This document shows positions 22,760 through 43,209 of a DNA stretch of 43,209 nt, piece after piece. The translations under genes and the position numbers were made by a program. The notes beneath the pieces were generated by a model that was not told the DNA's origin, searched no databases, and saw only the letters and a program-made list of their open reading frames with translations. The DNA is from a bacterium. GTDB lineage: Bacteria > Hydrothermota > Tepidihabitantia > B3-TA06. The stretch lies in NCBI GenBank assembly GCA_012517375.1, contig JAAYVC010000009.1:1-43209 (forward strand), read 5' to 3'. Each line of letters opens with the position of its first letter. Within the stretch, counting starts at the first letter, position 1.

Positions 22760-23911
22760 TCAGAAAGTGTAGCTTAACGAGAACTTTCGGTTAGTCGTTT
22801 TAAAGTCATATATGTTTTCATCTATTCCGATATCGAGCTGGAACCCTGCGTACTTTATGCCTGCCCCAAAAGTTACCCCTACTTTTTTTAATTTGCCGTG
22901 TTCCTCAAAAAGAAACGGGATAAGCCCGATATGCTCATTGAAGCCGTTTTCATCCTCCACAAAGAAACCGCCCCGGGCGCCTGTCTTATCAAAAAAGTAA
23001 CCTCCTCTAATCGTAAGTATTTCCCTGAAGATAGATAGCTCCATACCTATACTGCGCCAGCTTTCAGAGATTTCGTAACCAAGCTCCTCACCGAATGTCA
23101 TTGAATCGACGTCAGGGGGATCGATTGCAAACATTCCGACAAGGATCTTTGATATGTCTGATGTCAGACGCAACCCGACTATTTCGTATTGCGCCTGACC
23201 AGTATCCTTGGACATTATACTCAAAGGTTTATAACTTGCGCCCAGTCTCAAGGAAAGCGGCAATGGGTCAGGTTCTGAAGTAGCTGAAAAAGATATAGGC
23301 GGACCAAGGTTTTGCAGATCCACACCTAGATTTAAATTACTTAAGGGCTTATAAAGAACCCCTGCGTCAACAGCCCACGAAACGGCTTGACCTCTTGTAT
23401 TTTGCAGCTCAGGGTATAGATCAATAACCCATTGCGGAGCAAGAAACGAATATATGAATTTTGCGCCGCCGCCGACTCCGACCTTGGGAGCTATCTGCCT
23501 TCCATAAGCCAAACCAAGAGAAAAATCAAATGTAGTATAGCTACCAAGGTTTGAGCCATTTACAACAACGGGGGTTTCACCTGTTGTTAAATATATACCG
23601 TTAAATGAAAAAGTCCCGATTTTCGTAAAAGGTGAAGATACCGAAAGATATTCATAATACATATCCGGTGCTAGCGCAGGAAGCCAGTTAACATGCATAA
23701 TAGAGAGGTTAATCTTATCCTGAAAACCTAAACCTCCCGGGTTATAGAATGTGGCAGAAGCATCATCAGCAATTGCCGTAAACGAACCCCCAAGGGCTGT
23801 AGGACGCGATCCGGGCCATATGGTGAGAAACACAGCACCAGGTCTGTGTTTAGCTGCGCCTAGCAATAAGCCGGATAGTCCCAACATCAGTAATGCTGTT
23901 CTTTTAAGCAT
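22760..23911 (-). CDS. PorV/PorQ-family outer membrane beta-barrel protein
   Basis: 383 aa. A signal peptide (LKRTALLMLGLSGLLLGAA) precedes the PorV signature PGSRPTALGGSFTAIADDASATFYNPGGLG, then alternating beta strands ending in KFSLSYTF with a terminal aromatic residue, as expected of a FadL-like barrel. PorV-type proteins shuttle cargo or form channels in type 9 secretion. The ATG at 23911 is used; a TTG three bases upstream is an alternative. An AAGGAGGT site lies 9 nt before the ATG. It is the first gene of a transcript with purA and the QueH fusion, an odd mix of functions. Confidence 0.82.
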   Translation of the reverse strand: MLKRTALLMLGLSGLLLGAAKHRPGAVFLTIWPGSRPTALGGSFTAIADDASATFYNPGGLGFQDKINLSIMHVNWLPALAPDMYYEYLSVSSPFTKIGTFSFNGIYLTTGETPVVVNGSNLGSYTTFDFSLGLAYGRQIAPKVGVGGGAKFIYSFLAPQWVIDLYPELQNTRGQAVSWAVDAGVLYKPLSNLNLGVDLQNLGPPISFSATSEPDPLPLSLRLGASYKPLSIMSKDTGQAQYEIVGLRLTSDISKILVGMFAIDPPDVDSMTFGEELGYEISESWRSIGMELSIFREILTIRGGYFFDKTGARGGFFVEDENGFNEHIGLIPFLFEEHGKLKKVGVTFGAGIKYAGFQLDIGIDENIYDFKTTNRKFSLSYTF

Positions 23912-23946
23912 CAATTATCGACCTCCTTAATGGTCATTATAGTGTA

Positions 23947-27876: not shown

Positions 27877-28701
27877 CTACTGAAACACAAACTCGACCCT
27901 GGCGTATTCAGGGACTTCTTGAACGTTTATTTTTGTGTGATAAAGCCTTTCATCCAGATATTGTTTTGCTGTTTCTGCAATATAAGTATCGGAGGCTTTA
28001 ATAAGAATACTCGTAAATCCCTTTTCTTTTAGACGATTAAGGACATATTGGTAATAGTTGGCGATTTTCTGAGAAACTGCTCCCACATCGTAGGACGCAA
28101 TTTCCGCTTCCTTCACTGCAACAACATTTTCATAAGCTATTCCGTTTAAGTCTATCGGACGGCCTATCTTTCTCATCTGAGAACCGTCTTTAGTATTCAG
28201 AATGATGATGAAGGAATACACGTCTCCAACGGCCATTACCTGACTGGGGTCGTCTCCCCTGCCGTCCCAGCTTATTGTCGCCGGGAGGGCTCCGTTCTGC
28301 TGGATTGTCCTGAAAGTGTTCCCGCGAGCGTCGAGTATGTTAACGGTCCAGCTGGCAATGTTTCTTTCCTGGTAAGATGAAACGTCGATTGCCAAGGTTT
28401 GACGATCGAGGTCGTAGAAGGATGTAACATTAACAGGTACGCGCAACAGGAAAGGGTCGGCCATGAATGTGCTTCGTCCGACCGATTTTTCGACCTGAGT
28501 GATGAGATTGTCGTCAAGGATGAAACGCGTGCTGCCGAGCATTATTCCTATGGGCTGGTAGGGATCTATCTCGTAGTAAAAAGCCTTAGGTTTGTATTCA
28601 ATTAGACCAGTCTCAGTTACTTCGTATATTTTTTCTTGAGCCCGCATGAATACGGGCATAAGAAACAGTATTCCTAAAGAGATACCGAGTATCCTTGTCA
28701 C
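27877..28701 (-). CDS. Periplasmic protein with FlgD-like Ig segment, TonB operon
   Basis: 274 aa. Signal peptide ending near MRAQ at about residues 20-22. A central stretch SWTVNILDARGNTFRTI followed by SWDGRGDDPSQVMAVGDVYSF is the FlgD Ig-like pattern, here placed internally. The C-terminal 70 residues (YYQYVLNRLKEKGFTSILI, AETAKQYLDERL, ARVEFVF) resemble the helix-strand order of OmpA domains but lack the peptidoglycan-binding motif. It may be a periplasmic or outer-membrane partner of the ExbB/ExbD/TonB complex. GTG start with AGGAGG 6 nt upstream; that site overlaps the tonB stop. No function is assigned. Confidence 0.6.
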   Translation of the reverse strand: MTRILGISLGILFLMPVFMRAQEKIYEVTETGLIEYKPKAFYYEIDPYQPIGIMLGSTRFILDDNLITQVEKSVGRSTFMADPFLLRVPVNVTSFYDLDRQTLAIDVSSYQERNIASWTVNILDARGNTFRTIQQNGALPATISWDGRGDDPSQVMAVGDVYSFIIILNTKDGSQMRKIGRPIDLNGIAYENVVAVKEAEIASYDVGAVSQKIANYYQYVLNRLKEKGFTSILIKASDTYIAETAKQYLDERLYHTKINVQEVPEYARVEFVFQ

Positions 28702-28711
28702 TTGCTGCCTC

Positions 28712-29677
28712 CTAGGTCAAGATAAATCTGAAAGTGACCACCGCTGAACGTTTTGCAATTCCGCTTTCAGAAGGTTTAAACTTCCAACGCGCAAGAGAAG
28801 ATTTTACCTGTGCATCCCAATCAGGATAGCCGGTGCTCTTTATTACAATCATCGTTGGCGAAACATTGCCTGCCGCATCCGCTGAAAACTGGATGCTTAC
28901 GTTAACGTTGCTTAAACCCTTCTGGCGCGCCCACGGTGGATATGCCGGCATGGCACTGCTTACAATATCCGCAAATGATAAATCTCCGGATAGCGAGAAT
29001 CCGGATTTCTGGCTGCCTGCAGCCTGAGCTGCATCGCCGCCGTTTGTCTCCTGAGCGACCAGCGTGGGCTTCTTAATCGCTTCTGAACCAAGCTGAGTTG
29101 CGCCTTCGTTCAGTTCAATGCTTCCTCCGGTAGCGGCTATTTTTTCAAAGGGACTGACGTTGCCTACGCCGCCCGTACCTCTGGCAAGGTTAATGGGCGC
29201 TTGCGAAAGAATCTCTTCAGTGGATACTTTGGCGTTGGGGTTAATTCTGATTACGTCACCGGAAAAACTAGCCTGGCTCTTATCCAGTGAAAAGTTATCC
29301 ACCGACATTTTCGCCTGCGACGTAAACTTCCCGGCGCTGAGATCGATTGGTGCAGCTTCTTCCAGCCCGGTCGGGCTTGTAAGAAATTGCTGTTCTCTCT
29401 GAACAATTTGCTGAGCCTTGGGTGGAAGCGACTCGTCGTAGGAAGTCACCTCAGTCAGTGTTGCGTCACTCTCCTCAATTTTAGTTCCTGTAAAAAGTCC
29501 AAGGGCGAACATTATTATTAGAGCATGAAGCAACGCCGAAACTGCCATTCCTATCCATAGCCGCTTGTTTGAGAACATCTCGGCAAGACCTCTTCCTGTA
29601 TTCACGAGAGCCAGTCTCCAAGCGTGTCCCCAATCCCTGGGCCTCAGATTAGGCTCGAAACCCAGAATTTTAACCAT
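28712..29677 (-). CDS. TonB-family energy transducer
   Basis: 321 aa. About 45 cytoplasmic residues precede one transmembrane helix (about 45-64, AVSALLHALIIMFALGLF). A long periplasmic region of about 170 residues leads to the C-terminal TonB domain (YPPWARQKGLSNVNVSIQFS, GYPDWDAQVKSSLARWKF, VTFRF). It would carry the force of the ExbB/ExbD motor to outer-membrane partners. The cytoplasmic N-terminus is longer than in E. coli TonB and the spacer is not the usual Pro-rich one. AAGGAG precedes the ATG. No TonB-dependent receptor gene is in the window. Confidence 0.85.
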   Translation of the reverse strand: MVKILGFEPNLRPRDWGHAWRLALVNTGRGLAEMFSNKRLWIGMAVSALLHALIIMFALGLFTGTKIEESDATLTEVTSYDESLPPKAQQIVQREQQFLTSPTGLEEAAPIDLSAGKFTSQAKMSVDNFSLDKSQASFSGDVIRINPNAKVSTEEILSQAPINLARGTGGVGNVSPFEKIAATGGSIELNEGATQLGSEAIKKPTLVAQETNGGDAAQAAGSQKSGFSLSGDLSFADIVSSAMPAYPPWARQKGLSNVNVSIQFSADAAGNVSPTMIVIKSTGYPDWDAQVKSSLARWKFKPSESGIAKRSAVVTFRFILT

Positions 29678-29689
29678 TTCAATACTCCT

Positions 29690-30118
29690 TTATCCTTCGG
29701 CGGGCTTTTTCCTTGCCTTTGTCGACAAGGCAATTCGTTGCGCTCCCGATTCTCTTACCAGTGCGAGAAGATCCATTACCCACTGCGAGGGAACGGATCT
29801 ATCCGCGCGAATAACTATAAGATAATATGAATCGGCGCTCATCTTATTGCTTATAGCGCGTTCAATTGCAGGCTGAGGCATGAGGGAATCGTTTAGATAG
29901 AGATTTCTGGTTCCGTTCGGATCAACTTGAAGCGTAAGCGTGAGATTCTCCTCAGTCTTGCGTTCCATCGTGTTCGCATAAGGCACTTCGACAGGCGTAT
30001 TCTCATGAGTTAAAAGCTGATTAGCCGTCATCATCATCATCAGAACTACGAGCAAGGCTACTCCTGCCATAGGAATGATGTTAGGCATAAGCGAACGCGA
30101 TTCTTTCTTTGCAGGCAT
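29690..30118 (-). CDS. ExbD/TolR-family protein lacking the motor Asp
   Basis: 142 aa. Short basic N-terminus, one transmembrane helix (about 12-32, IIPMAGVALLVVLMMMMTAN) and a periplasmic ExbD domain (LTLTLQVDPNGTRNLYLND, YYLIVIRADRSVPSQWVMDLLALVRESGAQRIAL). The Asp normally in the helix of ExbD (LxDV) is replaced by Ala-Gly, so this copy should not carry protons. Start overlaps the upstream exbD stop by one base (TGATG), with AAGGAGG before it. The partner gene just upstream keeps the Asp. Confidence 0.85.
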   Translation of the reverse strand: MPAKKESRSLMPNIIPMAGVALLVVLMMMMTANQLLTHENTPVEVPYANTMERKTEENLTLTLQVDPNGTRNLYLNDSLMPQPAIERAISNKMSADSYYLIVIRADRSVPSQWVMDLLALVRESGAQRIALSTKARKKPAEG

Positions 30119-30552
30119 CAGCCCCCTCCTTCTTCAAGAGGAACGCCTCTAAGAAGAGCCAGCTTACCGGCTTTCTTATCCTTAGCCATATCAAGAATCT
30201 CTACAACCGCTCCATGGCTGACTGCTCCATCAGCGCGAACAACAACTAGCTTATCTACGCTGCGCTGCAGCAGAAGTTCAACTAGAGCCGGAATCTTGTC
30301 TTTCTCTACAGGTTCATCATTCAGGAAATAAGTTCCGTCTGCCCTGATGTAAATGGCTACCTTAAACTCGCTGCCTTGATCGGCTCCGCCAACGGTTTGC
30401 ACGCCGGGCGCCTTTACGAAAATGCCGCTCTCAAGCAGAGCGGGCAGAGTTACTATAAAGAAGATGACAAGACTGAGAGCGACATCCACAAGCGATGTAA
30501 TATTAGCCTGTCCCGCGACGTGGCTTCTCTTGTCAGGCTTTCGGATTCTCAT
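30118..30552 (-). CDS. exbD: ExbD/TolR-family protein, motor type
   Basis: About 144 aa from the ATG at 30552; a GTG at 30561 is the alternative. The transmembrane helix NITSLVDVALSLVIFFIVTLP has the conserved Asp (LVDV) that carries protons in ExbD and TolR. A periplasmic domain follows (FKVAIYIRADGTYFLNDEPV, VDKLVVVRADGAVSHGAVVEILDMAK). Its start lies inside the 3' end of exbB, so the two are coupled. With ExbB and the second ExbD it would form the ion-driven motor for TonB. Confidence 0.92.
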   Translation of the reverse strand: MRIRKPDKRSHVAGQANITSLVDVALSLVIFFIVTLPALLESGIFVKAPGVQTVGGADQGSEFKVAIYIRADGTYFLNDEPVEKDKIPALVELLLQRSVDKLVVVRADGAVSHGAVVEILDMAKDKKAGKLALLRGVPLEEGGG

Positions 30553-31255
30553 AAGATCCACCCTTGGAAAGCGAGATGAGCTTCATCAGCTTGCGCAAAA
30601 ATGTCTCAAGCTCATCCACTATGTCAGTGGATTTCTTTGCAAAATAGTTGTAGAAGAAGATGGTCGGAATAGCGATAACGAGACCAAACTCTGTAGTGTA
30701 CAATGCTACACCCACTCCAGCTGCTACTACAGCCGGACCGCCTGATCCGCTTACAGCTATGTTCAAGAAAGCCTGTATGAGTCCTACAACGGTTCCCAAA
30801 AGACCCATTAGAGGTCCTACGTTGCCAATGGTGTTGATCCCAGCCAAGAAACGTTCCATCTGAACTCGCTGCTTGAGGATTTCGCTTTCCATCATCTCGG
30901 CTATCATATCGTCAGGAAGCGTATAGTTCTCGAATGCGACGCGAACCACGTGAGCAAAGGGAACGTCATGATTCTTTACAAGAGCTAGTACTTCAGGGAT
31001 GCCACCGGTAGTAAAAGTTTCTTTAACCTTTTCAAAGTATTTGTCTGCGTTAACACGCCGCTTGCCGAAGTATATAAATCTCTCTACAACCAGCGTTATC
31101 GCTGCAAGAGAGATCAGGGCGAGAAGTCCCATTGTTGCGTCGAACGATGGATCCCATGGAAGTATCATCCTTACGAATGATTCCGTAGTTGACATGCCCG
31201 TAGTTGGCGCGGCACGGGTGAAGAGAAGCGTAACTATATCAATCAGTTGCTTCAT
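30533..31255 (-). CDS. exbB: ExbB/TolQ/MotA-family proton channel
   Basis: 240 aa with the standard three helices: one near residues 40-58 (LLALISLAAITLVVERFIYF), then IGNVGPLMGLLGTVVGLIQAF, then ALYTTEFGLVIAIPTIFFYNYF. The conserved GLLGTVxGxxxAF and GLVxAIP motifs of the channel are intact. The N-terminal 35 residues before the first helix are an extension. ATG start with GGAGG 6 nt upstream. It is first of the five-gene operon and has its own promoter. Confidence 0.93.
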   Translation of the reverse strand: MKQLIDIVTLLFTRAAPTTGMSTTESFVRMILPWDPSFDATMGLLALISLAAITLVVERFIYFGKRRVNADKYFEKVKETFTTGGIPEVLALVKNHDVPFAHVVRVAFENYTLPDDMIAEMMESEILKQRVQMERFLAGINTIGNVGPLMGLLGTVVGLIQAFLNIAVSGSGGPAVVAAGVGVALYTTEFGLVIAIPTIFFYNYFAKKSTDIVDELETFLRKLMKLISLSKGGSYENPKA

Positions 31256-31287: not shown

Positions 31288-31316
31288 AGTATAATCCTCT
31301 TTTGCTAGTTTGTCAA
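31288..31316 (-). promoter_or_regulatory. Promoter of the exbB-exbD-exbD-tonB operon
   Basis: On the minus strand TTGACA (31311-31316), a 17-bp spacer and TATACT (31288-31293), about 30 bp before the exbB start. Confidence 0.7.
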
Positions 31317-31598: not shown

Positions 31599-34115
31599 TC
31601 ATTTAATCAGGAGTTCTGCAGACTTTTTCAAATCGTCGATGTCAGCGCGTGAGTTTTTAACAAATTCACTATCCTTGTGTAAACGCTCAAGCTTCTCAAG
31701 AACTTCAAGTGCCTTTTTACCGTCATCTTTACGAGCGAGGGGGTCATTATTGCCGGCTCTTTTGACGAGCGAAAAAGCAAGGAAGTAAAGTACCCTTGAA
31801 GAGTATTCATCCGAATCGGAATATGATGAAAGATAAATCTCGGCCTGACGTATGGTTTTTTCCCAGTCTTTTGCTAGCACAAGAGTCCTTACAAGCTCGA
31901 ACGAAGCCTCGGACAGAATATCATTTACTTCTGGAAGTCTGCGCCATTGAATAATGCTCTCTAATTTTGCAACCGCTTCCGGGTAGTCGCCTAACTCTAT
32001 CTCCATTCTTGCAGCTTGCAGAAACAGAGTCGGCAGATAAGGACTTTCAGGATTGATATTCTTCATCCTGGCAATAATCCCGATCAAGTGATCGATTTGC
32101 CAGAGCGCTGTGTCTTTTTGAGCGGTTCTATAATAAAAAGTTTCCAGCGCCAGGGTAGAGTTCTGAGTTCTGCTTAACCTTTCCGCAAATTCCTTGGCTT
32201 GTTCTTCGTCGCCCTTAGCCATTGCATTATCAAAAATTACAAGGAGTATCTCTTTATAAATATCGGAAAATTGAAAGTGGTACAATTTAGCTTGTTCAAT
32301 CAATTTCTCTAGTGTTTTTTCGGCTCTATCCGGGTGCCCCATCTGTATCTGGGCGCGTGCAAGCCTTGACCACGCATCGCGAATCTCTTCTGAAGCCGGA
32401 AATGCCGCAAGAAGGTCTTCATATGCTGAAGCTGCCAAGTCGAAACGGCCGCTTTGCTCATATGAACGTCCCTCAAAGTATAGCCCCTGCATTCGCATCT
32501 CTGGAACCGAAGAAAAGTTTAAACGCGAGAAAACTTCCGCAGCCACGCGGAAGTCTCTGGCTGCGTAATAATTTAATCCTTCGAGAAAAATAATAGTTTG
32601 AGACTCCATTTCGGTCGGCTGATCGGCGGATAATGCCGTTACTATTTTTTTTACTTCTCCCGTATTTCTGTCTGTTAAAAAACCCCAAGCCAGCCCGAAA
32701 TAGCCTTGATGACGCAGTTCTTTATAAGAGCTCTGAATAGCGTATTCGTAATATGGTCTTGCCATTTTCTCATAGCGCCCGCCAGAGTAGTAGTATGCGT
32801 CTCCAACAGCCACATGAGCTGCCGTAGCGAAATAATCCTCTTCTCTTTTTCCAAGATTTGAAGCAAGGACCTGACCACGATTCTTGACTGCATCGGCAAG
32901 GGAAAGTGTCAGCTGATATTCTTTTTTTTCATTCTCACATGCTGCATAAACGGCAAGAATAATGTTCGACATGCTTGAAATACTAGACATATCCATACTC
33001 TGTATCATGTTGCCTAGGATTAACAGTGCACTAGTATAGTCCGCCTTGCGTATATACCCAGAAACTCTAAGCAAGTTGTACAAGTCGGATGCCTTTCGCT
33101 TTTCGAAATACGCCTGTGTAGTCGGGTCGCCGGCACCGCCTCCTATAATCCATTGAGAATAAGCGGCATACGACGGGTTTTCAGAAGCTTTTTTAAACCA
33201 TGTCCTGGCGGCATCCGGTCTGTTCTCCATCCATTCAACCCTGCCGCGAATCATGGCAAGCGCACGTTCAGGAAGAAGCCACTGGTAAAGGAATGTGTCC
33301 GGGACCGCAAGATGCGCCTCTCTGGACTTTTTTAGACACAGGAGAGCCTCAGCCATGTCATATTTAACAAGCGAGCTATAAGGCGTGCGAATCTCGGAAA
33401 GAACCTGCAGAGAATCATGAGCTTGGCTATAAAGACCTGCCTTTACCAGACGGTGCACCCTGAGATATCTGCCAACATTTCCGGAAGGTAATGTGGAGAC
33501 TGAATCCTCCAGATGGTATCTTAAAGCTTGAGCCGTAACCTCTCTTGACGGTAAAAATCTTTGCGCCTTCCTTGCGTCTCTTTTGACAAAAAGAAAGTAA
33601 AGAAGAGAATCCTTTGATGGAATCTCGCCCTTCTCAAGATATGAAACAAGCGAGCGGATGTATTCCATAGGGGCGCCTGAAGAAGCTTCCTTATCCGCCT
33701 CAAGGGTTTTAAGGCTTGCCTTTACGCCAGAAAGGTCACCTCTTAGCCAGTCTGCCGTGATTCGATATAAAAGTATCTGACGGCGTGCATCGGGAGGAGG
33801 GTTAAACGTAAGCTGCATTTCGAGCGATTTAAGCGCGCTGTCAGGTCTGAGTCTTGCAAGCTGCTCATAGGATTCTGACAGGGCAGGCATCAAGGGATTA
33901 CCCCCAAGTTCTGATAAGAGTATGGTGGCATCAATGCACTTTTCAATCTCATCGTCAAGGGAAAACCCCGTTTGCGCGAATAGATATTCATCCGTGACCC
34001 ATTCAGGCAACTTATACGCAAACTTCGGCTTGCGCTGAAGCACTTCTGATGCCTCGACCTGCTGAACCCCCAGATTCCCCTGACCGATTAAAAGTATTGT
34101 AAATATAAAACTCAT
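31599..34115 (-). CDS. Large periplasmic TPR-repeat protein
   Basis: 838 aa. A signal-like N-terminus (SFIFTILLIGQGNLGVQQVEAS) is followed almost wholly by helical TPR-type repeats, clear at YFGLAWGFLTDRNTG, AAEVFSRLNFSSVPEMRMQGLYFEGRSYEQSGRFDLAASAYEDLLAAFP, and DPDRAEKTLEKLIEQA-like repeats. The C-terminal tail (LERLHKDSEFVKNSRADIDDLK) resembles the tails of the 886-aa and frameshifted TPR proteins upstream. TPRs are scaffolds for protein contacts; the periplasmic location is inferred from the signal. AAGGAG lies 7 nt before the ATG. It is the last gene of the cluster. Confidence 0.75.
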   Translation of the reverse strand: MSFIFTILLIGQGNLGVQQVEASEVLQRKPKFAYKLPEWVTDEYLFAQTGFSLDDEIEKCIDATILLSELGGNPLMPALSESYEQLARLRPDSALKSLEMQLTFNPPPDARRQILLYRITADWLRGDLSGVKASLKTLEADKEASSGAPMEYIRSLVSYLEKGEIPSKDSLLYFLFVKRDARKAQRFLPSREVTAQALRYHLEDSVSTLPSGNVGRYLRVHRLVKAGLYSQAHDSLQVLSEIRTPYSSLVKYDMAEALLCLKKSREAHLAVPDTFLYQWLLPERALAMIRGRVEWMENRPDAARTWFKKASENPSYAAYSQWIIGGGAGDPTTQAYFEKRKASDLYNLLRVSGYIRKADYTSALLILGNMIQSMDMSSISSMSNIILAVYAACENEKKEYQLTLSLADAVKNRGQVLASNLGKREEDYFATAAHVAVGDAYYYSGGRYEKMARPYYEYAIQSSYKELRHQGYFGLAWGFLTDRNTGEVKKIVTALSADQPTEMESQTIIFLEGLNYYAARDFRVAAEVFSRLNFSSVPEMRMQGLYFEGRSYEQSGRFDLAASAYEDLLAAFPASEEIRDAWSRLARAQIQMGHPDRAEKTLEKLIEQAKLYHFQFSDIYKEILLVIFDNAMAKGDEEQAKEFAERLSRTQNSTLALETFYYRTAQKDTALWQIDHLIGIIARMKNINPESPYLPTLFLQAARMEIELGDYPEAVAKLESIIQWRRLPEVNDILSEASFELVRTLVLAKDWEKTIRQAEIYLSSYSDSDEYSSRVLYFLAFSLVKRAGNNDPLARKDDGKKALEVLEKLERLHKDSEFVKNSRADIDDLKKSAELLIK

Positions 34116-34148
34116 CCAGACGCTCCTTGAAGATTTAAGATATGATAC

Positions 34149-35935
34149 TCACTTAACGTTGCCGTTGCAAGCCTTTTCACTTTCTGCTATCTTTTGCTCT
34201 ATATCGGCTGATATACCCCCTGATTTATAGAATTCTGTATCCTGATAGTTGCTTTTAATGATTCTAAAATTGTCTAGCGCCTTGCAGGAACCCTCCGGTA
34301 TATTAGAATAGGATAATGCCAGATAGTAGTAGATTTCTGGTAATAGAGGAATATGCTCTTGTTTTACATCTTCACCGTACTCGAGCCATTCTTCAAGTTC
34401 ATTTATCGCCTGGTTGTAATTGACAAGGTTGTAGTAGCTTTTGGCTAAAATGACGAGGGCTTCCGGCATTATTGACCTCGCCTCTTCACATTCCTTCAGG
34501 AGCTTTATTTTTGAAAGGATATCCCGTGCATCTTCATAATCACCTTTTTCAAAATCAGACTTCCCTATATTGTAAAAATTCTCGATGCTAAGGGATTTAA
34601 AGAATTGTTCGCAAGAGGAGTCTTTTTCTGGTCAAGCGAAGTATAATACTCGAAAAGCGACAAGACGCCATAGGCGTATGCATTCTTGTAAACTTCGCTA
34701 CTTTTATAAAGTCTTTTTTTGACTTCTTCCGTAACCTCTACTGCCTTGTCTACCTGTTTGGCAAGGATGCGAAATACAATTATCTTCTTTGCCGCCTTTC
34801 CTGCCCATTCCGAATTAGGGTAATTTTCAAAGACTTCTGAGTATTTATCGAACGCTTCGGAGTACGATTTGTAGTGCTTTTCGAGAATTATCCCAAGGAG
34901 GTACAAGACCTCCGGCTTGAGGTCGTTTCTCGTGATCTCCACCGAGTTATATTTTGAGATCCAGCTTTCTAGTTCAGCTCTAGCCTTCTCATAGCGATTC
35001 TGGCCTATGTAGACTTTGGCTCTAATTAAGCTTATATCTGAAAAATATGAGGAATCGAATTGATATTGGGATGATTGAAGCTGTCGCTCAAGGATATCAT
35101 ACTGACCTGCTTTGAGATAAAACTCCATTATCTTTATTATTGCTTTTTGAGACTCCGGTAACTTAGGAAAACTGTCGATGATACATTGATATATCAATAG
35201 AGCATCCCCGTAGTATTGTATCTTTTCATAGGTTTTTGCAAGTAAGTATCTAGTTTTAGGCTTCAACTGGACTACCTCTGGTTCATCGAGCGTATCGTAC
35301 TTCCCTAACCATGTTTTAAGCTCATCGATTGCATAGTAGTATTTTTCGGACTGGTAGTATACGTTTGCCAGTTGATAAGATACATCAGGCATCATCCCTT
35401 TTACGGCTTGGCTATCGGGCCAGCTCTTTAGTTCCAACAAAATGTATTCCGTTTTTGTATAGCTCGAATCGAGCGCCAAAAGAAAACTCATCAAGAACAA
35501 CGGTTGCGGCGTCAGATGTTTCATTTTTTCCTCATCAATCAATTCTTTTATTTTTTCAACACTTATTTCTTCTGGACGATAAACTTGGGTACTTCTGTAA
35601 TTGCTGACCCCACAATAATCCCTGGCTAGCTTCCTTATGAATTCACCCGCCTTATCTCTCTGACCCATGTCTTGGTAATAATTGTATAGTACAGACAATC
35701 CGTGCCGGTAGGCTTCTCTATAAATGCCCTTATCCTTTTTTTTAATACGATCAGTTATAATCTCCACCGAATCTATATCTCCTGCTGCCGTATAGATATC
35801 AATCATTTTCAAGTATGCTTCGGCTGCAATTGTTGAATCGGGGTAGTTTTGAATTATTTCAAGGTAAGTGGAAATGCTATCTTGCCAGTTCTCGACCTCT
35901 TTGATTTGAAGGAATAGACCTAAAAGAATAAACAC
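34149..35935 (-). pseudogene. TPR-repeat protein interrupted by a single-base frameshift
   Basis: Two frames join into one protein. The first (35935 to about 34625) ends YGVLSLFEYYTSLDQKK, then goes out of frame and stops at 34565. The other continues as SSCEQFFKSLSIENFYNIGKSDFEKGDYEDAR and runs through MPEALVILAKSYYNL to TGA at 34149. Adding one A to the A5 run (T5 on the plus strand at 34623-34627) restores a 595-aa protein. It is closely related to the C-terminal two thirds of the 886-aa protein, including the tail NYQDTEFYKSGGISADIE. GTG start with AAGGAGG 5 nt upstream. Only a short hydrophobic N-terminus is present. The break may be real or a homopolymer error. Confidence 0.82.
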
Positions 35936-35966
35936 TTTTCCCTCCTTGAATTAGATTTGAAACGTT

Positions 35967-37574
35967 CTACTGCGTCTGCAGGCGGCAGTCGTCACGAAGT
36001 TTCGTAGCCCATTCCCGATTCGATTCCGCCGCAGGCGCTCTTGCAAGATAGTCTTCAAGCATGGTGATTGCCTTGCGGAACATGTCTTTTGACTCCGTCG
36101 GACTAGCGCTCTTGATGGATTGCGCTTTAGAAGCATAGGCAACACCAAGCATTAATGCCATATCCCAGGTGAAATCGGACACGTACTGGCTTTTGAATCT
36201 TTCTCCCTCTGTTATTAGTTTATCCCAGTCCTTGAGAGGGTAAAAGCAATATAGCCGCAATGACCTTGAGCTCTTAATTACATCCTCGCTTGCTTGCGAA
36301 GCCGTAGCCAGAGCGGTCCAGGCAAGACATTTTTCATACTTTGCTTCATCGTAAAAGCGGGTCGCCAGCTGCATTTGATAAATGGGCAGGTCTTTTGAGT
36401 TAGGTACATCTTGAGCGAAATTCTTCAAAAGATTCTCAAGACTATCAGTTGGAAGTATTCCGTAATTCCCTGCCAGAGCTTCGGCTGCAAGCCTTGAATA
36501 ACACATGTCAAGACCCGTATTGGCAGAAGCTGCACCCCAACCTTTGCGGATTAATTTCCAGTTATCTATAGCATCGTTTAATCTTCCGGAATTGTAATAT
36601 GCCTGAGAAAGATTAATGCGTATATCCCTGATAGCCGAACTGTCCTTGACAAGGCTAAGGGCTTTATTGAAATACAATACTGCTAGATCATAGTTTTCAG
36701 TGGAAAAGCTAAGCCATCCAACAAGATAGGTTGCAGACAGTGCTTTAGGGTGATTGGGATAATCGTCGGCTACACGGCGAAGATATTGTAAAGCTGTAGC
36801 CTGTTCACCCAGTCTGTCATAAGCTAGTCCCTTATAGTATAGATTTTTAGGAACCAGAGACTTGGCCAAAGGTCCCCATATGCCTTCGACTGGAATCTGT
36901 TGATATTCTTTGTCATCAAAGAAGTATCTGATCGCCTCGTCAAACCGTCCCGAGTTGAATTCATTAATCCCCTGACCGTAGAATGTTGATATGATCAGAT
37001 CCGGCGACACAGGTCTAAATGTATCTTTGAATACAGTTCTTGCCTCATCGTACCGCCCGAGATGCATGAGGCACCACGCTAGACCGTGATGAGCGTATTC
37101 GTAAACCTCGGAAGCCGGGTAATCGTCCATGAGTTCGCGGTAACGCAGCATAGCATCCTGGTATTGTTCCTGATAGTAATAAGCTTCTGCCATGTTAAAA
37201 AGCATATGAGGTCTGAATGTCGGATCTCCCTGAGGGTAGCGAGCGATATAATCTTGAGCGTCATTCAGAAGCGCGGCATAATTCCCTTTTTCATAAAGGT
37301 CTAGTATTATTAAATTCTCAAGGCCGTCTCTGTAGGCAGCCAGTGACTCCATTTTTTTTACAAGATCCTTTAATGCAGTAACTTGTTCCGGCGAAAAACC
37401 CCCTTTTATCAATTCAATACTGGAATGAAACAATCCGTGCGGTTTCTGCTCCCTTATTACACCCTTGTACTCTTCAATAAGAGTCATCTGCATTTCCCCT
37501 TGAATCTGGAGGGGAAATGCAGATGAAATTACGAGAAAGGTTAAGACAAACCTTAACCAATCTTTCGTTTGCAT
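35967..37574 (-). CDS. Periplasmic TPR-repeat protein
   Basis: 535 aa. Signal peptide DWLRFVLTFLVISSAFPLQ, then tandem TPRs (GNYAALLNDAQDYIARYPQGDP, MAEAYYYQEQYQDAMLRYRELMDDYPASEVYEYAHHGLAWCL, KNLYYKGLAYDRLGEQATALQYLRRVADDYPNHPKA, AYYNSGRLNDAIDNW). The spacing is 34-36 residues, as in BamD-type repeats. The ATG lies inside the end of the 886-aa gene (22-nt overlap), so translation is coupled. A perfect 15-bp inverted repeat spans the end of the signal-peptide coding region. Confidence 0.78.
   Translation of the reverse strand: MQTKDWLRFVLTFLVISSAFPLQIQGEMQMTLIEEYKGVIREQKPHGLFHSSIELIKGGFSPEQVTALKDLVKKMESLAAYRDGLENLIILDLYEKGNYAALLNDAQDYIARYPQGDPTFRPHMLFNMAEAYYYQEQYQDAMLRYRELMDDYPASEVYEYAHHGLAWCLMHLGRYDEARTVFKDTFRPVSPDLIISTFYGQGINEFNSGRFDEAIRYFFDDKEYQQIPVEGIWGPLAKSLVPKNLYYKGLAYDRLGEQATALQYLRRVADDYPNHPKALSATYLVGWLSFSTENYDLAVLYFNKALSLVKDSSAIRDIRINLSQAYYNSGRLNDAIDNWKLIRKGWGAASANTGLDMCYSRLAAEALAGNYGILPTDSLENLLKNFAQDVPNSKDLPIYQMQLATRFYDEAKYEKCLAWTALATASQASEDVIKSSRSLRLYCFYPLKDWDKLITEGERFKSQYVSDFTWDMALMLGVAYASKAQSIKSASPTESKDMFRKAITMLEDYLARAPAAESNREWATKLRDDCRLQTQ
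37485..37525. repeat. Perfect 15-bp inverted repeat near the 5' end of a TPR gene
   Basis: Arms CATCTGCATTTCCCC and its exact complement flank an 11-nt loop. It covers codons about 17-30 of the 535-aa TPR protein and the frame stays open. Confidence 0.9.
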
Positions 37575-40213
37575 TGTTCTATTAGCCTGTCAACATCAGC
37601 AGACACGCCAGTGCGTTTGTAAAAATCGCTATCCTTGTATCTATCTTTTATCGTCTGAAGATTGGAAATAGCTTTCCGATAGTTGCCTGCCCGAACCTGC
37701 GGCGACTGTTCAGATTCAGCAAGCCTCATGTAAGATAAACCAAGATAATAGTAAACGCTCGGAGCCAAATCGAGCCGTGCATTGTCTCCTTGTTCATAAT
37801 AACGCGTCCAGGCTTCAAGCTGCGTAATGGCATCCTGATAGGATTCACTGGAGATATAAACTCTTGCTAGCTGAACAGTAATTTCAGGCATCCTGTCTTT
37901 CGTAGCGTTATCGTCAGGCCAGTTTTTGAGTTCTACAAGCACGTTTTTAGCTTCATCGTATGTTTTTTGCTCGAATAAAAGGACACTCAAAAGAAAGAGA
38001 GGATCAGGCAGATACGCGCTGCGGGGATTTCTTGCTCTGATTTTCTCTATCTTTTCCCTGAGATCCGCAATGTCCGCAACTGATGTGTCCCGCATGGCTT
38101 GACGATAATACAGCACTTCGATAGGCTCTGTGGTTCCAAGTTCGCTGGTAAGTCTCTTTGCGTAGACCTCTGCAGTGGCTTCATCGCCAATTCCCTGGTA
38201 GTAATCGAAAAGGGAAGCCAAACCGTATCCGTACGCATCCTTGTAAACAGGCCTGTTTCTGGTCATTTTCCCCTTGATTTCTTCGGTTTTTGCCACTGCT
38301 TTATCCACTTGCTTGGCGCGAATGAAGAACTCTATAATCTTTCGTGACGCCTCGCCGGCCGTATTACGCTGAGGGAATGAATCCGCAATGTGCTGGTAAA
38401 CCTGAAGAGCATCTCCGTAAAAGTTCAACTGCTCAAAGCACCTGCCGCGCCAGAAGAGCGCGCGATCGATGAGACTATCGGCTATTTCATTATAGTGAAT
38501 ATCAGATGTAGCTTCCTCGCGTCTAACTGCGATGCGCATATCGTTCCTGTAAGCAGCCTCGTCAAAGAACCAGTTGGCAGCATTCTGGTAATCCCCTTTA
38601 TAAAAATGAGCAAGACCCTGGCCATAGGCGGCAAGAACAAGCGCATCCGTTTTCAATGTGTTAGCAATAATATTATCGAAGCTGGCAATAGCGTCATCAA
38701 AACGTCTCGCTTCCATGTTGTACCAAGCAATCGAAACCTTTGCAAGAGTGCTCATGTAAGATTCGGGGTACTTTTCAAGAATCGCTTGATACAACACTCT
38801 GGCATCTTCGCGCCGCTTTATGTTGCGAATTTCTCCTCTAGTATATGATGAGTAATACGTTGCATCCGCTTGGTTGTAGAGAAGGTATGCACGCCAATCG
38901 CCGCCGTATTGAATCGCAACCGAGTCTTGCTTGAACAGCGAAAGGTACGTTTTCGGTCTCGACATTGCGTCGCTATAGCTCGCTTGTTGATCTTGCCGGT
39001 TGAGAGCTAAGAGAGCCATCGTCATGGTTCCTTCGTATATCAGAAGCTCTTCTGGTGGCGCATCCGCGTTAGGAATATTCGTAGTAACCGCATTATAATA
39101 GTTGAGCGCTTGAGTGTAATTTGCCTGATCAAATTCAATATTTCCGAGAACCATACTGGAGAGATTCTCCATCATACCCTGGCCGCGGTTCGTAAGAGCA
39201 ATCCTTCCGAGCCTTTGGGCCTCTGCCTTGGCTATATCAAGATTCCCTTCTTTACGATTTATCTCGTAAAGCCGATACGTTGTGTAGAAATCAACCATCG
39301 AGTTTGGAGCTACAATTCTTGCCTGCTCAAAGGAAAACATCGCGCTATCCGCCAACTTGAGTTCTCTGTATGCCTCGCCTCTCATAAAGTAGGCATGGGC
39401 GGCAAGGACCTGACCATTCCTGTTAGGATCGGTAAGCTTGCTCAACAAATCGACAGAGTAGCGGTATTCCCTATCGTGGTAGTAAGTACAAGCAAGGTAA
39501 TACTCAGCAAAAGGTCTCAGAGCGGTCTGCGGATACTTTGTCATGAAATCTCTAAAAACATTCTTTGCCGTTGCGTAATCCATATTGAAAAACGACATCT
39601 CTGCGCGGCTGAAATCGACAAGTTCTTCCAGGTTGGTGTCATCCGACAATTCAGTAAGTATTGAACGAATATCGCTGAAAAAGGCCGGATCGCGCGAATT
39701 TATCAGGCTTCGCGCAAGGAAAAGCTTGTCTACCGGGTATTCCTTATCTTTTAGATGATCGAATGCAGTTTTATAGTCTTTGCGAATGAGATAATCCGCG
39801 ATACCCATTCCGCCCATGTCCTGCGCTTCATCAAGGAATCTCTGCGCCCTCTGCACCTCGCCTATCTGGAAGTAGCACAAGCCGAGAGAAAACTTGATTT
39901 GAGGAGCAAGGTAGGCGTAACGGGAGTCGGCGGGGATGTCTTCGTTCAGGGCTTTTTCCAGAAGCGAGATGGCGACCTCAAAGCGCCCTAGATTATAGGC
40001 GCATTGAGCGGTCCTGTACTTCATTTCCGCCGCAAAACCGCGAGAGCCGGCATCGCGTATGAGACCGTTGTAGGTCTCATACGCCTGCTGGTAATTTCTC
40101 TGGGAAAGAAGCTTCTCGGCCTTCTCGTAATCGGACATGAATTTGTCCGTTGCCTGACCGAAGAGAGCCCCGGCAACTATAAGTATTGCTACTAGGGCTG
40201 CTGCCTTCTTCAT
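37553..40213 (-). CDS. Large periplasmic TPR-repeat protein
   Basis: 886 aa. Signal peptide KKAAALVAILIVAGALFGQ, then TPR repeats over nearly the whole length (RNYQQAYETYNGLIRDAG, LGRFEVAISLLEKALNED, YATAKNVFRDFMTKYPQTALRPFAEYYLACTYYHDREY, DALQVYQHIADSFPQRN, SYQDAITQLEAWTRYYEQGDN). The C-terminal tail (IKDRYKDSDFYKRTGVSADVDRLIEQCK) is shared with the next two TPR paralogs. AGGAG lies about 7 nt before the ATG and overlaps the PorV-like stop. Large TPR lipoproteins such as PorW/SprE work in type 9 secretion, but this protein has no lipobox, so any such role is inference. Confidence 0.8.
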   Translation of the reverse strand: MKKAAALVAILIVAGALFGQATDKFMSDYEKAEKLLSQRNYQQAYETYNGLIRDAGSRGFAAEMKYRTAQCAYNLGRFEVAISLLEKALNEDIPADSRYAYLAPQIKFSLGLCYFQIGEVQRAQRFLDEAQDMGGMGIADYLIRKDYKTAFDHLKDKEYPVDKLFLARSLINSRDPAFFSDIRSILTELSDDTNLEELVDFSRAEMSFFNMDYATAKNVFRDFMTKYPQTALRPFAEYYLACTYYHDREYRYSVDLLSKLTDPNRNGQVLAAHAYFMRGEAYRELKLADSAMFSFEQARIVAPNSMVDFYTTYRLYEINRKEGNLDIAKAEAQRLGRIALTNRGQGMMENLSSMVLGNIEFDQANYTQALNYYNAVTTNIPNADAPPEELLIYEGTMTMALLALNRQDQQASYSDAMSRPKTYLSLFKQDSVAIQYGGDWRAYLLYNQADATYYSSYTRGEIRNIKRREDARVLYQAILEKYPESYMSTLAKVSIAWYNMEARRFDDAIASFDNIIANTLKTDALVLAAYGQGLAHFYKGDYQNAANWFFDEAAYRNDMRIAVRREEATSDIHYNEIADSLIDRALFWRGRCFEQLNFYGDALQVYQHIADSFPQRNTAGEASRKIIEFFIRAKQVDKAVAKTEEIKGKMTRNRPVYKDAYGYGLASLFDYYQGIGDEATAEVYAKRLTSELGTTEPIEVLYYRQAMRDTSVADIADLREKIEKIRARNPRSAYLPDPLFLLSVLLFEQKTYDEAKNVLVELKNWPDDNATKDRMPEITVQLARVYISSESYQDAITQLEAWTRYYEQGDNARLDLAPSVYYYLGLSYMRLAESEQSPQVRAGNYRKAISNLQTIKDRYKDSDFYKRTGVSADVDRLIEQCKRKIG
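40055..40084. repeat. Perfect 12-bp inverted repeat near the 5' end of a TPR gene
   Basis: Arms GCGTATGAGACC and its exact complement flank a 6-nt loop. It lies about codons 43-53 of the 886-aa TPR protein, with the frame intact. Confidence 0.9.
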
Positions 40214-40216
40214 ATC

Positions 40217-41521
40217 TTATCTCCTAACGCCTTTCCAGTCAACCTTCACAAGCTGACCGTCGTAGACAATCTGGTCCCCAAGCTTATCAAAAAGCTTGAT
40301 TGAATAGTAATAGGTGCCATTGTCTACCTGGCCGCCGCGGATATTATCCACGCCGTTCCATGTGAATTTTGCTGGCAGTTCGTCGATCTCGCCGTATACG
40401 TCACGAGTCTGACGATATCGGACGTTTCCACCGGCATCTTTAATCTCGAATATCCAGCGCTTGGTTCGGTTCTTGAACTGGGAGTTACCGTGGACAACTA
40501 TCTCTGCATAATCTGCAGGCGAATTAAGCTGTGCCGGCTTTGATTCAACCCAGACGCCTGCGACGCTCTTGAGATCAAGATTCAATGAAACCTTATGGAT
40601 GGGGTCCAGATTAAATTCGCTTGCATGATTCATCATGAAGGCGTAATTGATTTCAAGTCCAAGGTTGCGGGAAAGTTCGGTGATGATGCCAAGGCCAGCG
40701 CTAAAGAACCTATCGTTTACGCCAAGACGGATGGCAAGCGGCTTTGCAGGATAAACTTCAAGGCCTTCGTACCAGCCGAACTTTGAGTTGTCGCCGAGAG
40801 TGTAGGAGATATCCGAACCGAGCTTTACGCGGTCATCAAGAAGCCTGAGGCCGAGACCGGCGCGGATGATGCGCGGGTTTGCAGGCTCCATACCGCTGCC
40901 CGTAAAGTCCATTGTAGCGCCGAGGATATTCTTGACTGCAACACCTAAGGTTATCATATCATAGGAGAGGGAGGGCACAAAACTCATGGGATAGAACGAA
41001 AAGCCTGCATCGACATCAAAGCCAAGAGCCTGCTCGTCGGCAAGCTGGCTGAACATGAGTTTCGGGGCAACACCAACGCCGAGGAATCCGAACTTCTTGG
41101 CATAGCTTATCAAAACGCCTGAATTGTTCATGCTCTGGTCGCTGATGGGCTGTCCGTCAGGACCAACGGGATCCTCGATAGCGCCGAAAGCTCCAGTGTA
41201 GGTAAGGCCGAATGTGCCGAAGGTCGCCCAGGGCATGTTGAACGAAAGAACGCTCTGAGCGCATCCGCCGTACAAGGAACCGCCCATAAGGGCAAGCTGT
41301 GCAGAGTGAATTTCTGCAAGGCCTGCAGGGTTGTATAGAACGGCTTCGCCCTGATCGGCAAGTCCGGTGTTGGCCTGACCCATTGCAAGCGAACGGGCGC
41401 TTCCGCCAGCCTCGAATAACATGGCTCCGCTGCCGCCCACTGCCGATGAATCCAGTTGGGCAAAAGCCACGCCGGCGATTAGGGGAAGAAGCACGATTGC
41501 GAGTAAATATTTTGCTTTCAT
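40217..41521 (-). CDS. PorV/PorQ-family barrel with C-terminal FlgD Ig-like domain
   Basis: 434 aa. Signal peptide KAKYLLAIVLLPLIAGVAFA, then FEAGGSARSLAMGQANTGLADQGEAVLYNPAGLAEI, the PorV-type signature, and beta strands to about residue 320. The last 100 residues are an Ig-like FlgD-type domain (KRWIFEIKDAGGNVRYRQ, FTWNGVDNIRGGQVDNGTYYYSIKLFDKLG). The second of two adjacent ATG codons is chosen because AGGAGG is then 5 nt upstream. It is 16 nt after the stop of the Ig-like surface-protein gene. Likely an outer-membrane partner of that protein and of the TPR proteins. Confidence 0.82.
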   Translation of the reverse strand: MKAKYLLAIVLLPLIAGVAFAQLDSSAVGGSGAMLFEAGGSARSLAMGQANTGLADQGEAVLYNPAGLAEIHSAQLALMGGSLYGGCAQSVLSFNMPWATFGTFGLTYTGAFGAIEDPVGPDGQPISDQSMNNSGVLISYAKKFGFLGVGVAPKLMFSQLADEQALGFDVDAGFSFYPMSFVPSLSYDMITLGVAVKNILGATMDFTGSGMEPANPRIIRAGLGLRLLDDRVKLGSDISYTLGDNSKFGWYEGLEVYPAKPLAIRLGVNDRFFSAGLGIITELSRNLGLEINYAFMMNHASEFNLDPIHKVSLNLDLKSVAGVWVESKPAQLNSPADYAEIVVHGNSQFKNRTKRWIFEIKDAGGNVRYRQTRDVYGEIDELPAKFTWNGVDNIRGGQVDNGTYYYSIKLFDKLGDQIVYDGQLVKVDWKGVRR

Positions 41522-41537
41522 CATTGCCTCCTAGACC

Positions 41538-43199
41538 TTACCAGATCACCATGAGGTTTTTCCTGAGCACCTCAGTGCTTAGGTTAGTTAGTGTAATCTT
41601 AAGCACTGCCTGGTACATGCCGCTCGATATTGAGTTGCCTTTACCATTTTTTATATCCCAGGAGATAGTCTGCTGACCGGGCTGAACAGGTGTTCCTGAT
41701 GTAAAGATATTCTTATAGACGACATTGCCGTAAATATCTGTAATGAGAAGCATAACTTCTGCTGCACCAGCCTGTTCTACTTTATAGGAAAAATTGATGG
41801 CATTGTGTCCGGCTGCACCGTACTTCCAGGGATTGGGAGCTATTGTAAGCCCGGTAATGTCTTTGACATTAAGAGTCACATTTCTAGTTTGTTCCCCGGC
41901 AGTTACTTTTAGAACGTATGTTGTTTCAGCACTGGCCCAGACCTCTGTCTCGGCTATTCCGTTTACAATGGTCAATTCCCATTTGCCGTCGACTATTTTT
42001 GTGGAATCTTCTATATGGAAAGACTCTTTAGGGCCTTCAGCTAGCTCCACGTAAGCGTAATCTAATGCTACTGGCTTCGCACTTTCATACGCTTCAATAT
42101 GAAGGGTAGAATGGACATCCTTTGGTACAATCGCAGGATTAAGTGTAGCCGTTAATGAGTCAATCCCTGCCAATACTTCTACGCTGGTGTTATAAGACGT
42201 GTTCTTTCCGTTGCTGTCTTTGGCATAAATATTAGTCGGGCTATCAGTCGTGAATTTAACATTCACATTATCGTTTTTGCCTGATTTGATGGTGTCGTCC
42301 GTAGTGCTTGTTAAATCGGTGTTGTTGCCAGATTCAAAGACGTTAACTTCATATGGCCCATAACTGGTAACTACATTCCAGCACTTATCGACCGCCCAGA
42401 TTTTAACTATGTAGGGCGAACCGACGCTTGCCTTACCGGGAGTCCCTGTTGTGCCTGGGTAGGCTTTCTTTTTAGGGCCGTTTGCGGTAGTCGAATCATC
42501 ACCTGGAAGATTCACTTGATCAGGTGCTAGAATTTGAAGTTGCGTCACGGCGCCTGCATTGACTATTACGTTACAAACATCCTGAGTATAACTTCCGCCT
42601 TTTACTGTAACCGTACGTGAGCCAGCAGTGCGAAGTTCGATTTTGTTCACTCCAACGTTAGCAGTCTCAGGTACATGGCCGAAAAGATCAGTAGTTTCAA
42701 GTTCCGGAATATCAGAGCCGCCTTTGTCGTTATACCACTTATCAACTACATAAACGTTATAATCGGCACTATCGCCTGCGGTAACTGAACCTGTACCGGT
42801 TTTGCCGGTCGGAGTTCCCGGAGCGTATGTCTGTCCAGGCGCAACAATTAACCATTTTGAGGAGGCTCCGGCGTTGATATCAAAGGCATCTGATTCGCCG
42901 ATGTCTCCGTCAATAGGATCAACACAACGCAGCTTGACACCATTCCCCGCATAAGTAAATTCAAGGGGAAAAGTAACTTCTGACGTACCGTCGAAAGTCG
43001 TATCCGTGGGAATAACAAACTCTTTAGCATCGGATCCAACCACGAGATAGAGTTTGACATTTCCCGTATTTTCAGTTGCAGTTATTGTGATGTCATACTT
43101 TTGTCCGACAGTTGCCGGATTCGGGATGCCCTCGAAAGTAAAATTTTGCGCGAGGGCAATAGTAGCAAGAAGGACGGTAAGAAGAAGAATCTTCTTCAT
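41538..43199 (-). CDS. Secreted Ig-like repeat protein with FlgD/type A sorting tail
   Basis: 553 aa. Signal peptide KKILLLTVLLATIALAQ. The body is a series of beta-sandwich repeats with a shared layout: a hydrophobic opening strand, APGQTYAPGTPTGKTGT, SVTAGDSADYNVYVVDKWYN, seen again as ILAPDQVNLPG..., PGKASVGSPYIVKIWAVDKCWN, and more weakly near residue 330. A final domain (IAPNPWKYGAAGHN, VMLLITDIYGNVVYKNIFTSG, ISWDIKNGKGNSISSGMYQAVL) is a FlgD-like sorting domain. The second ATG is chosen because GAGGG is then 5 nt upstream. It is the first visible gene of the cluster; the promoter is off the window. Confidence 0.8.
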   Translation of the reverse strand: MKKILLLTVLLATIALAQNFTFEGIPNPATVGQKYDITITATENTGNVKLYLVVGSDAKEFVIPTDTTFDGTSEVTFPLEFTYAGNGVKLRCVDPIDGDIGESDAFDINAGASSKWLIVAPGQTYAPGTPTGKTGTGSVTAGDSADYNVYVVDKWYNDKGGSDIPELETTDLFGHVPETANVGVNKIELRTAGSRTVTVKGGSYTQDVCNVIVNAGAVTQLQILAPDQVNLPGDDSTTANGPKKKAYPGTTGTPGKASVGSPYIVKIWAVDKCWNVVTSYGPYEVNVFESGNNTDLTSTTDDTIKSGKNDNVNVKFTTDSPTNIYAKDSNGKNTSYNTSVEVLAGIDSLTATLNPAIVPKDVHSTLHIEAYESAKPVALDYAYVELAEGPKESFHIEDSTKIVDGKWELTIVNGIAETEVWASAETTYVLKVTAGEQTRNVTLNVKDITGLTIAPNPWKYGAAGHNAINFSYKVEQAGAAEVMLLITDIYGNVVYKNIFTSGTPVQPGQQTISWDIKNGKGNSISSGMYQAVLKITLTNLSTEVLRKNLMVIW

Positions 43200-43209
43200 C
43201 ATTTCCCTC

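Follow-up and report, generated by a model that had tools for sequence, protein, structure and literature searches.

How is type 9 secretion powered outside Bacteroidota? The question is raised by contig JAAYVC010000009.1 (assembly GCA_012517375.1), on which type 9 outer-membrane parts are paired with an ExbB/ExbD/TonB motor, in a host group in which the known type 9 motor was not found. The window, by which we mean the whole stretch of DNA analysed, is this entire contig (C9; 43,209 bases) from a 2.54-Mb genome, 97% complete (G000). Named relatives retrieved with the ExbB of the cluster belong to candidate division WOR-3, TA06 and Stahlbacteria, and genome searches place the host in that phylum. 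Eight genes of the window, running from an immunoglobulin-like (Ig-like) surface protein gene through a PorV-like barrel, a tetratricopeptide repeat (TPR) protein and the motor to a last envelope protein gene, are a conserved, co-inherited operon-like unit across WOR-3. We give a probability of roughly 0.5 to the reading that the products of this unit form a single machine, driven by protons and spanning the envelope, that acts on a PorV-type carrier and a surface protein. The features of the locus, with lengths in amino acid residues (aa) and open reading frames as ORFs, are as follows.

41538..43202, minus strand: Ig-like surface protein, 554 aa, with a signal peptide and an NPW/NPF...FlgD-like C-terminal domain; first gene of the unit
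40217..41524, minus strand: PorV/FadL-type outer membrane barrel, 435 aa, with an extra FlgD-like domain at the C-terminus
37553..40213, minus strand: TPR886, core TPR protein with a signal peptide, without lipobox Cys
35967..37574, minus strand: TPR535, accessory TPR protein, host family only among loci examined
34149..35935, minus strand: frame-broken TPR gene (ORFs 34565-35935 and 34149-34469)
31599..34115, minus strand: TPR838, accessory TPR protein, host family only among loci examined
31288..31316, minus strand: promoter-like site upstream of exbB, 11/12, a consensus match only
30533..31255, minus strand: ExbB/TolQ-type proton-channel subunit with motifs GLLGTVVGLI and ALYTTEFGL
30118..30561, minus strand: ExbD1, transmembrane Asp kept (D26, codon 30484-30486, NITSLVDVALS)
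29690..30118, minus strand: ExbD2, transmembrane Asp replaced by Gly (G19, codon 30062-30064, NIIPMAGVALL)
28712..29677, minus strand: TonB, with SxxxH (SALLH) in the membrane helix, a long linker and a canonical TonB C-terminal domain
27877..28701, minus strand: 274-aa envelope protein, a FlgD-like domain and a C-terminal OmpA-like fold; last gene of the unit

The genes lie on the minus strand where the original prediction had placed them, with tight or overlapping spacing within both of its blocks. The gaps are 13, 3, −22, 31 and 33 nucleotides (nt), in order from the Ig-like gene to TPR838, and −29, −1, 12 and 10 nt from exbB on, with 343 nt between TPR838 and exbB. The cluster reaches the contig edge at the Ig-like gene, where the view ends.

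An operon-like unit conserved across WOR-3

Comparisons were carried out on 147 WOR-3 genomes for phylum-wide searches, 61 relatives for GldL and GldM, 32 clusters for gene order and 38 clusters for ExbD pairs. The conserved order is Ig-like protein with a type 9-like C-terminal domain, PorV-like barrel, TPR, ExbB, ExbD, ExbD, TonB and FlgD+OmpA-like protein, and it was observed exactly, on one strand, in 28 of the 32 clusters, which represent many WOR-3 families; 25 of these have eight separate genes and three have exbD1 fused to a second exbB. The window proteins, mapped to relatives, keep order and strand in other families of the class, and the order is also found in deep families. The genes flanking the unit vary between families, and the unit therefore has real borders. 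The proposed linkage of the PorV/TPR block with the exbB-exbD-exbD-tonB block is thus borne out, and the joint order is kept across the phylum. Linkage of the genes is far above chance, and chance neighbourhood was judged unlikely on grounds of synteny.

Full-length copies of the last protein were found in 89 of the 147 WOR-3 genomes. This protein and the barrel share a homologous FlgD-like domain, and in 40 of these 89 genomes the barrel's domain is encoded 5.0-6.4 kb from the last-protein gene on the same strand. Correlations of 0.81-0.96 between the pairwise distance matrices of the eight proteins are consistent with their having been inherited vertically together. Two genomes have a split unit of which both parts survive (G008, contigs C10 and C138; G049, 156-160 kb and 661-665 kb). 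On contig C1 of G049 (651-665 kb; L068, L057), the Ig-PorV-TPR half lies about 8 kb from a SprA gene and the motor half 500 kb off; this proximity was seen once, in a genome assembly where frame breaks are numerous.

The original prediction had counted four TPR scaffolds, a picture that does not survive the comparison. In other families the unit holds a single TPR gene, usually abutting or overlapping exbB, and four TPR proteins as a core were rejected because the unit of relatives keeps one. The sizes of 886, 535 and 838 aa are confirmed, TPR535 and TPR838 being seen, among the loci examined, in the host family only. The supposed protein of about 595 aa is in fact two ORFs in different frames, the frame shifting at a run of five A residues (34623-34627). 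Both parts resemble the C-terminal half of TPR886, and no counterpart was found at the same place in G002, G005 and G006. Since a good Shine-Dalgarno sequence and a GTG start precede it, this gene may have been broken recently, or the break may be an assembly error. Outside the cluster, the C-terminal part of TPR886 has an intact paralogue of 598 aa (L047, G000:C12 40129-41724), and several further paralogues of that part, some in tandem, occur in G001 and G003.

The motor and its ExbD pairs

The motor consists of ExbB, two ExbDs and TonB with intact coupling motifs. The C-terminus of its TonB matches Escherichia coli TonB at 1.4e-10, and its membrane helix contains SxxxH. In E. coli ExbD, Asp25 of the membrane helix binds protons (PMC11658791). 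Of the 38 clusters having two ExbDs, 37 keep the proton-carrying Asp in exactly one of the pair, a count that does not amount to 37 independent cases because the losses probably reflect few evolutionary events. The stronger argument is the reciprocal pattern of loss: in 28 clusters the second ExbD lacks the Asp (Gly, Ala, Cys, Asn or Ser), and in nine clusters, from families f16, f20, f21, f30, f32, f33 and f37, the first ExbD has Asn and the second Asp. A tree separates first from second ExbDs. The exception (L165, family f34) has Asp in both ExbDs and also two ExbBs. For 5:2 rotary motors this reciprocal loss amounts to an experiment done by nature, suggesting that an ExbD1-ExbD2 heterodimer could serve as an axle working with a single Asp in either subunit, and such an axle bears on current models of rotation. 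Two ExbBs are found in the unit in some deep WOR-3 families (L164 6599-7687, L166 5678-6781, L165 8869-11181); in L164 and L166, and probably also in L170, one ORF of about 365 aa encodes both the second ExbB and the Asn-bearing ExbD as a fusion.

WOR-3 genomes also contain a second TonB motor, type C, with the gene order exbB-exbD-exbD-tonB (L059 6713-8829 on G000:C41; L064; L077 241-10402), in which both ExbDs have Asp in 3 of 3 pairs checked. Proteins with a Por_Secre tail and a Plug-domain protein (about 930 aa) come after it, and many genomes have a further PorV-family gene about 10 kb away. It looks commoner than the window cluster and occurs also in lineages without it.

The presence of this second motor matters for the proposal that the cluster is an ordinary TonB nutrient-uptake system lying beside surface-protein genes by chance. 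Its TonB, ExbB and ExbD are canonical, and seven Plug-domain matches in the genome could be energised by such a system. On the other hand, the linkage is phylum-wide with changing flanks, the cluster has no plug-domain gene, and a separate type C motor stands beside a Plug-domain gene in the class, so that the TonB of the cluster is probably not the housekeeping TonB. Given synteny and the second TonB motor, we judge a housekeeping role distinctly unlikely.

Relation to type 9 secretion

The barrel reaches 71 bits (1e-19) against the NCBIfam PorV_fam model, under the cut-off of 90, and this model is matched by 13 of 13 aligned relatives of the barrel. The best solved matches to its AlphaFold2 model (predicted local distance difference test score of 76) are PorV chains of the type 9 secretion system (8gl6_F, 3.3e-9; 6h3i_F, 5.2e-8), with FadL behind. 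This fold match agrees with the PorV-like character first ascribed to the barrel. The FlgD domain also ascribed to it is weak in the window protein itself and is supported in relatives. Elsewhere in the window, a gene labelled UPF0164 (22760-23914) is the best PorV-family match of the genome (169 bits, above cut-off) and outscores the cluster barrel; purA and a QueH-UDG fusion gene come after it, and the host family preserves this arrangement. In the fusion gene (20272-21438), a single ORF of 388 aa that is kept in G002 and G004, QueH (epoxyqueuosine reductase) is joined to a uracil-DNA glycosylase-superfamily domain.

The Ig-like protein ends in a domain resembling type 9 C-terminal domains, judging from its sequence, in line with the predicted FlgD sorting tail: nearly all members have an NPF/NPW start and a V-x-W end. 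FlgD-type tails were matched in 12 of 12 proteins and CHU_C in 3 of 12 at a weak score, with weak matches to PorU and PorZ.

The last protein was expected to combine FlgD-like and OmpA-like parts. The FlgD-like part stands; Foldseek matches to a model of the protein are weak, the best being FlgD (E 0.0024). The C-terminal fold, beta-alpha-beta-alpha-beta-beta, has OmpA topology, and the Pfam OmpA match is weak (4 of 14 relatives, best E 0.0029). Profiles of the barrel and of the last protein gave at most weak FlgD/OmpA matches against sequences of solved structures.

An OmpA-like protein at the end of the unit and a core TPR protein that scores above the cut-off of the YbgF/CpoB model are compatible with an outer-membrane integrity or division system doing the work of Tol-Pal. 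The host family, which has two MotA/ExbB-type genes only, appears to be without the Tol-Pal-like locus (type A) seen in other WOR-3 families (L061 6229-10390, L076 4153-8290), where genes for a lipoprotein, a YbgF-like TPR protein, TolQ, TolR, a TolA-like protein and a protein of about 410 aa are found. However, family f6 has both a type A locus and the eight-gene unit, the unit has no TolB propeller or Pal-like gene, PorV and proteins with type 9-like C-terminal domains are foreign to Tol-Pal, and the OmpA-like part appears to be without the usual peptidoglycan-binding Asp region. We therefore consider this explanation very improbable.

The genome does contain the outer-membrane core of type 9 secretion, outside the cluster. 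SprA was found on G000:C119 (326 bits summed, cut-off 200) and PorU at G000:C22:24040-27144 (449.9 bits, cut-off 420). The cluster has no translocon of its own, and its interpretation as a self-contained secretion system is not supported. The original prediction saw no PorL/PorM motor genes at the locus, and none came up in the relatives: GldL/PorL was detected in 0 of 61 genomes, by a model that rang in two Saprospiraceae as a positive control, and GldM/PorM in 0 of 61, no genome among those searched being one in which the GldM model rings. TPR886 reaches 43.6 bits against PorW/SprE, for a cut-off of 250, and lacks a lipobox Cys at its N-terminus; PorW was not sought elsewhere in the genome. 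A search of open-licence literature returned nothing joining WOR-3 with type IX secretion, which is weak evidence.

Could the cluster then be the motor of the WOR-3 type 9 secretion system, in place of GldLM/PorLM? The proton motor adjoins a PorV-like barrel and a TPR protein, and SprA and PorU are present where GldL and GldM were not detected. The distribution speaks against it: SprA_N occurs in 137 of 147 WOR-3 genomes, whereas a full-length last gene is present in 89, and no full-length last protein was found in the SprA-positive families f9, f11, f12 and f17 and genus g8 of family f3. Type 9 export in WOR-3 is more plausibly powered by the type C motor, which is present also in cluster-less lineages and often lies near another PorV gene. 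SprA occurs in families without a detected cluster, and the cluster is therefore not an obligatory type 9 motor; nor is it a self-contained secretion system. A role as type 9 motor was largely rejected on this distribution, and we hold it unlikely. Of the TonB-energised version of type 9 secretion first imagined, the PorV-like fold, the C-terminal domain and the linkage of the two blocks remain; the self-contained system and the obligatory motor do not.

The proposed machine and known systems

We consider a machine dedicated to a cargo and its carrier likelier than a general secretion motor. In this proposal the Ig-like protein would be exported by the SprA/PorV/PorU machinery of the host and would then remain surface-bound through a PorV-like carrier of its own. 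The periplasmic FlgD-like domain of the carrier, the TPR protein and the FlgD+OmpA-like protein would make a scaffold under the outer membrane, while ExbB and the ExbD1-ExbD2 heterodimer would use the proton-motive force, via TonB, to push or pull the outer-membrane assembly. Its work could be to free cargo and carrier from the translocon, or to present or move the surface protein. By analogy, the best reading is that it works like Agl-Glt or GldLM, and the unit may be devoted to one cargo and its carrier, comparable to the adhesin movement that gliding Bacteroidota have in addition to type 9 export. A fuller version is offered tentatively, with odds short of even: a TonB-energised machine ancestral to WOR-3, whose half-powered rotor (ExbB and a one-Asp ExbD1-ExbD2 heterodimer) releases or moves a surface protein that is exported by type 9 secretion and sits on a PorV-type carrier of its own, in hosts whose type 9 system is without GldLM.

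Several observations weigh against one machine acting on carrier and surface protein. Many SprA-positive families are without the unit, and at one locus (L169) the TPR-motor part has no adjoining PorV or Ig gene; because of both, the parts are not strictly obligate. The two blocks in the window may be separate transcripts, since the 343-nt gap and the promoter-like site lie between them, and the distance correlations partly mirror shared vertical descent. The barrel has no identified TonB box, and no Plug-domain receptor was listed on contig C9 or found in Pfam scans of the cluster proteins. Apart from FlgD, the sorting-domain matches have weak statistics, and FlgD-Ig-type domains are common in the host genome (59 places, many at the ends of large proteins), where they likely mark a large set of surface proteins or type 9 cargo.

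A gliding or surface-traction machine of the Agl-Glt kind, with a motor that pulls an adhesin and its carrier along the envelope, would have the same make-up: one TolQ-type and two TolR-type subunits, a TonB-domain protein, TPR proteins and an outer membrane barrel (PMC3169522, PMC5349195). The putative cargo has Ig-like character, as many adhesins do. Yet no specific Glt homologues were found beyond weak TPR-type matches to the GltE and GltC models in relatives, and AglQ and AglS both keep their Asp (PMC9389320), as against one Asp in 37 of 38 pairs here. We regard this alternative as doubtful, and return to the dedicated cargo-carrier machine for comparison with known systems.

The likeness to type 9 secretion lies in the PorV-type barrel, a putative cargo with a type 9-like C-terminal domain, a periplasmic TPR protein and a proton motor, with SprA and PorU in the genome. 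The differences are a motor made of ExbB-ExbD-ExbD-TonB rather than GldLM, a translocon outside the cluster, a core TPR protein that, unlike PorW/SprE, is a non-lipoprotein and falls far under the PorW/SprE cut-off, and a barrel that differs from PorV in its extra FlgD-like domain. Like Tol-Pal, the unit has a TolQ/TolR-type motor, a YbgF-like TPR protein and an OmpA-like protein; unlike it, the unit has a canonical TonB domain and no TolB or typical Pal, and coexists with a separate Tol-Pal-like locus in other WOR-3.

In the TonB-dependent secretion of PopC by Oar in Myxococcus, a protein likewise crosses the outer membrane by the power of ExbB, ExbD and TonB (PMC11658791), but Oar is a plug-containing TonB-dependent barrel and the barrel here is PorV/FadL-like. 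Large TPR genes upstream of exbB-exbD-tonB, with no PorV or Ig partner, occur in Ignavibacteria, Atribacteria and Omnitrophota (L087, L088, L089, L092, L110, L113, L116, L139), and the TPR-motor pairing may for this reason be older than WOR-3. Loci of this kind in Ignavibacteria and others (L089, L092, L110, L113, L116, L139) resemble the unit in this placing of the TPR gene, and differ from it by at least one other gene in between, the lack of a PorV-like or Ig partner and a single ExbD with Asp.

The AglRQS motor is composed of a TolQ-type and two TolR-type subunits (PMC3169522). The Agl-Glt and Nfs systems of Myxococcus share with the unit this composition, a TonB-domain transducer, TPR proteins, outer-membrane barrels and a surface protein; the unit differs in being a single compact operon, in having one Asp-bearing ExbD of two and in showing no detectable specific Glt homologues. 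We file the unit with the TonB/Tol/Agl-type trans-envelope machines and not as a type 9 system.

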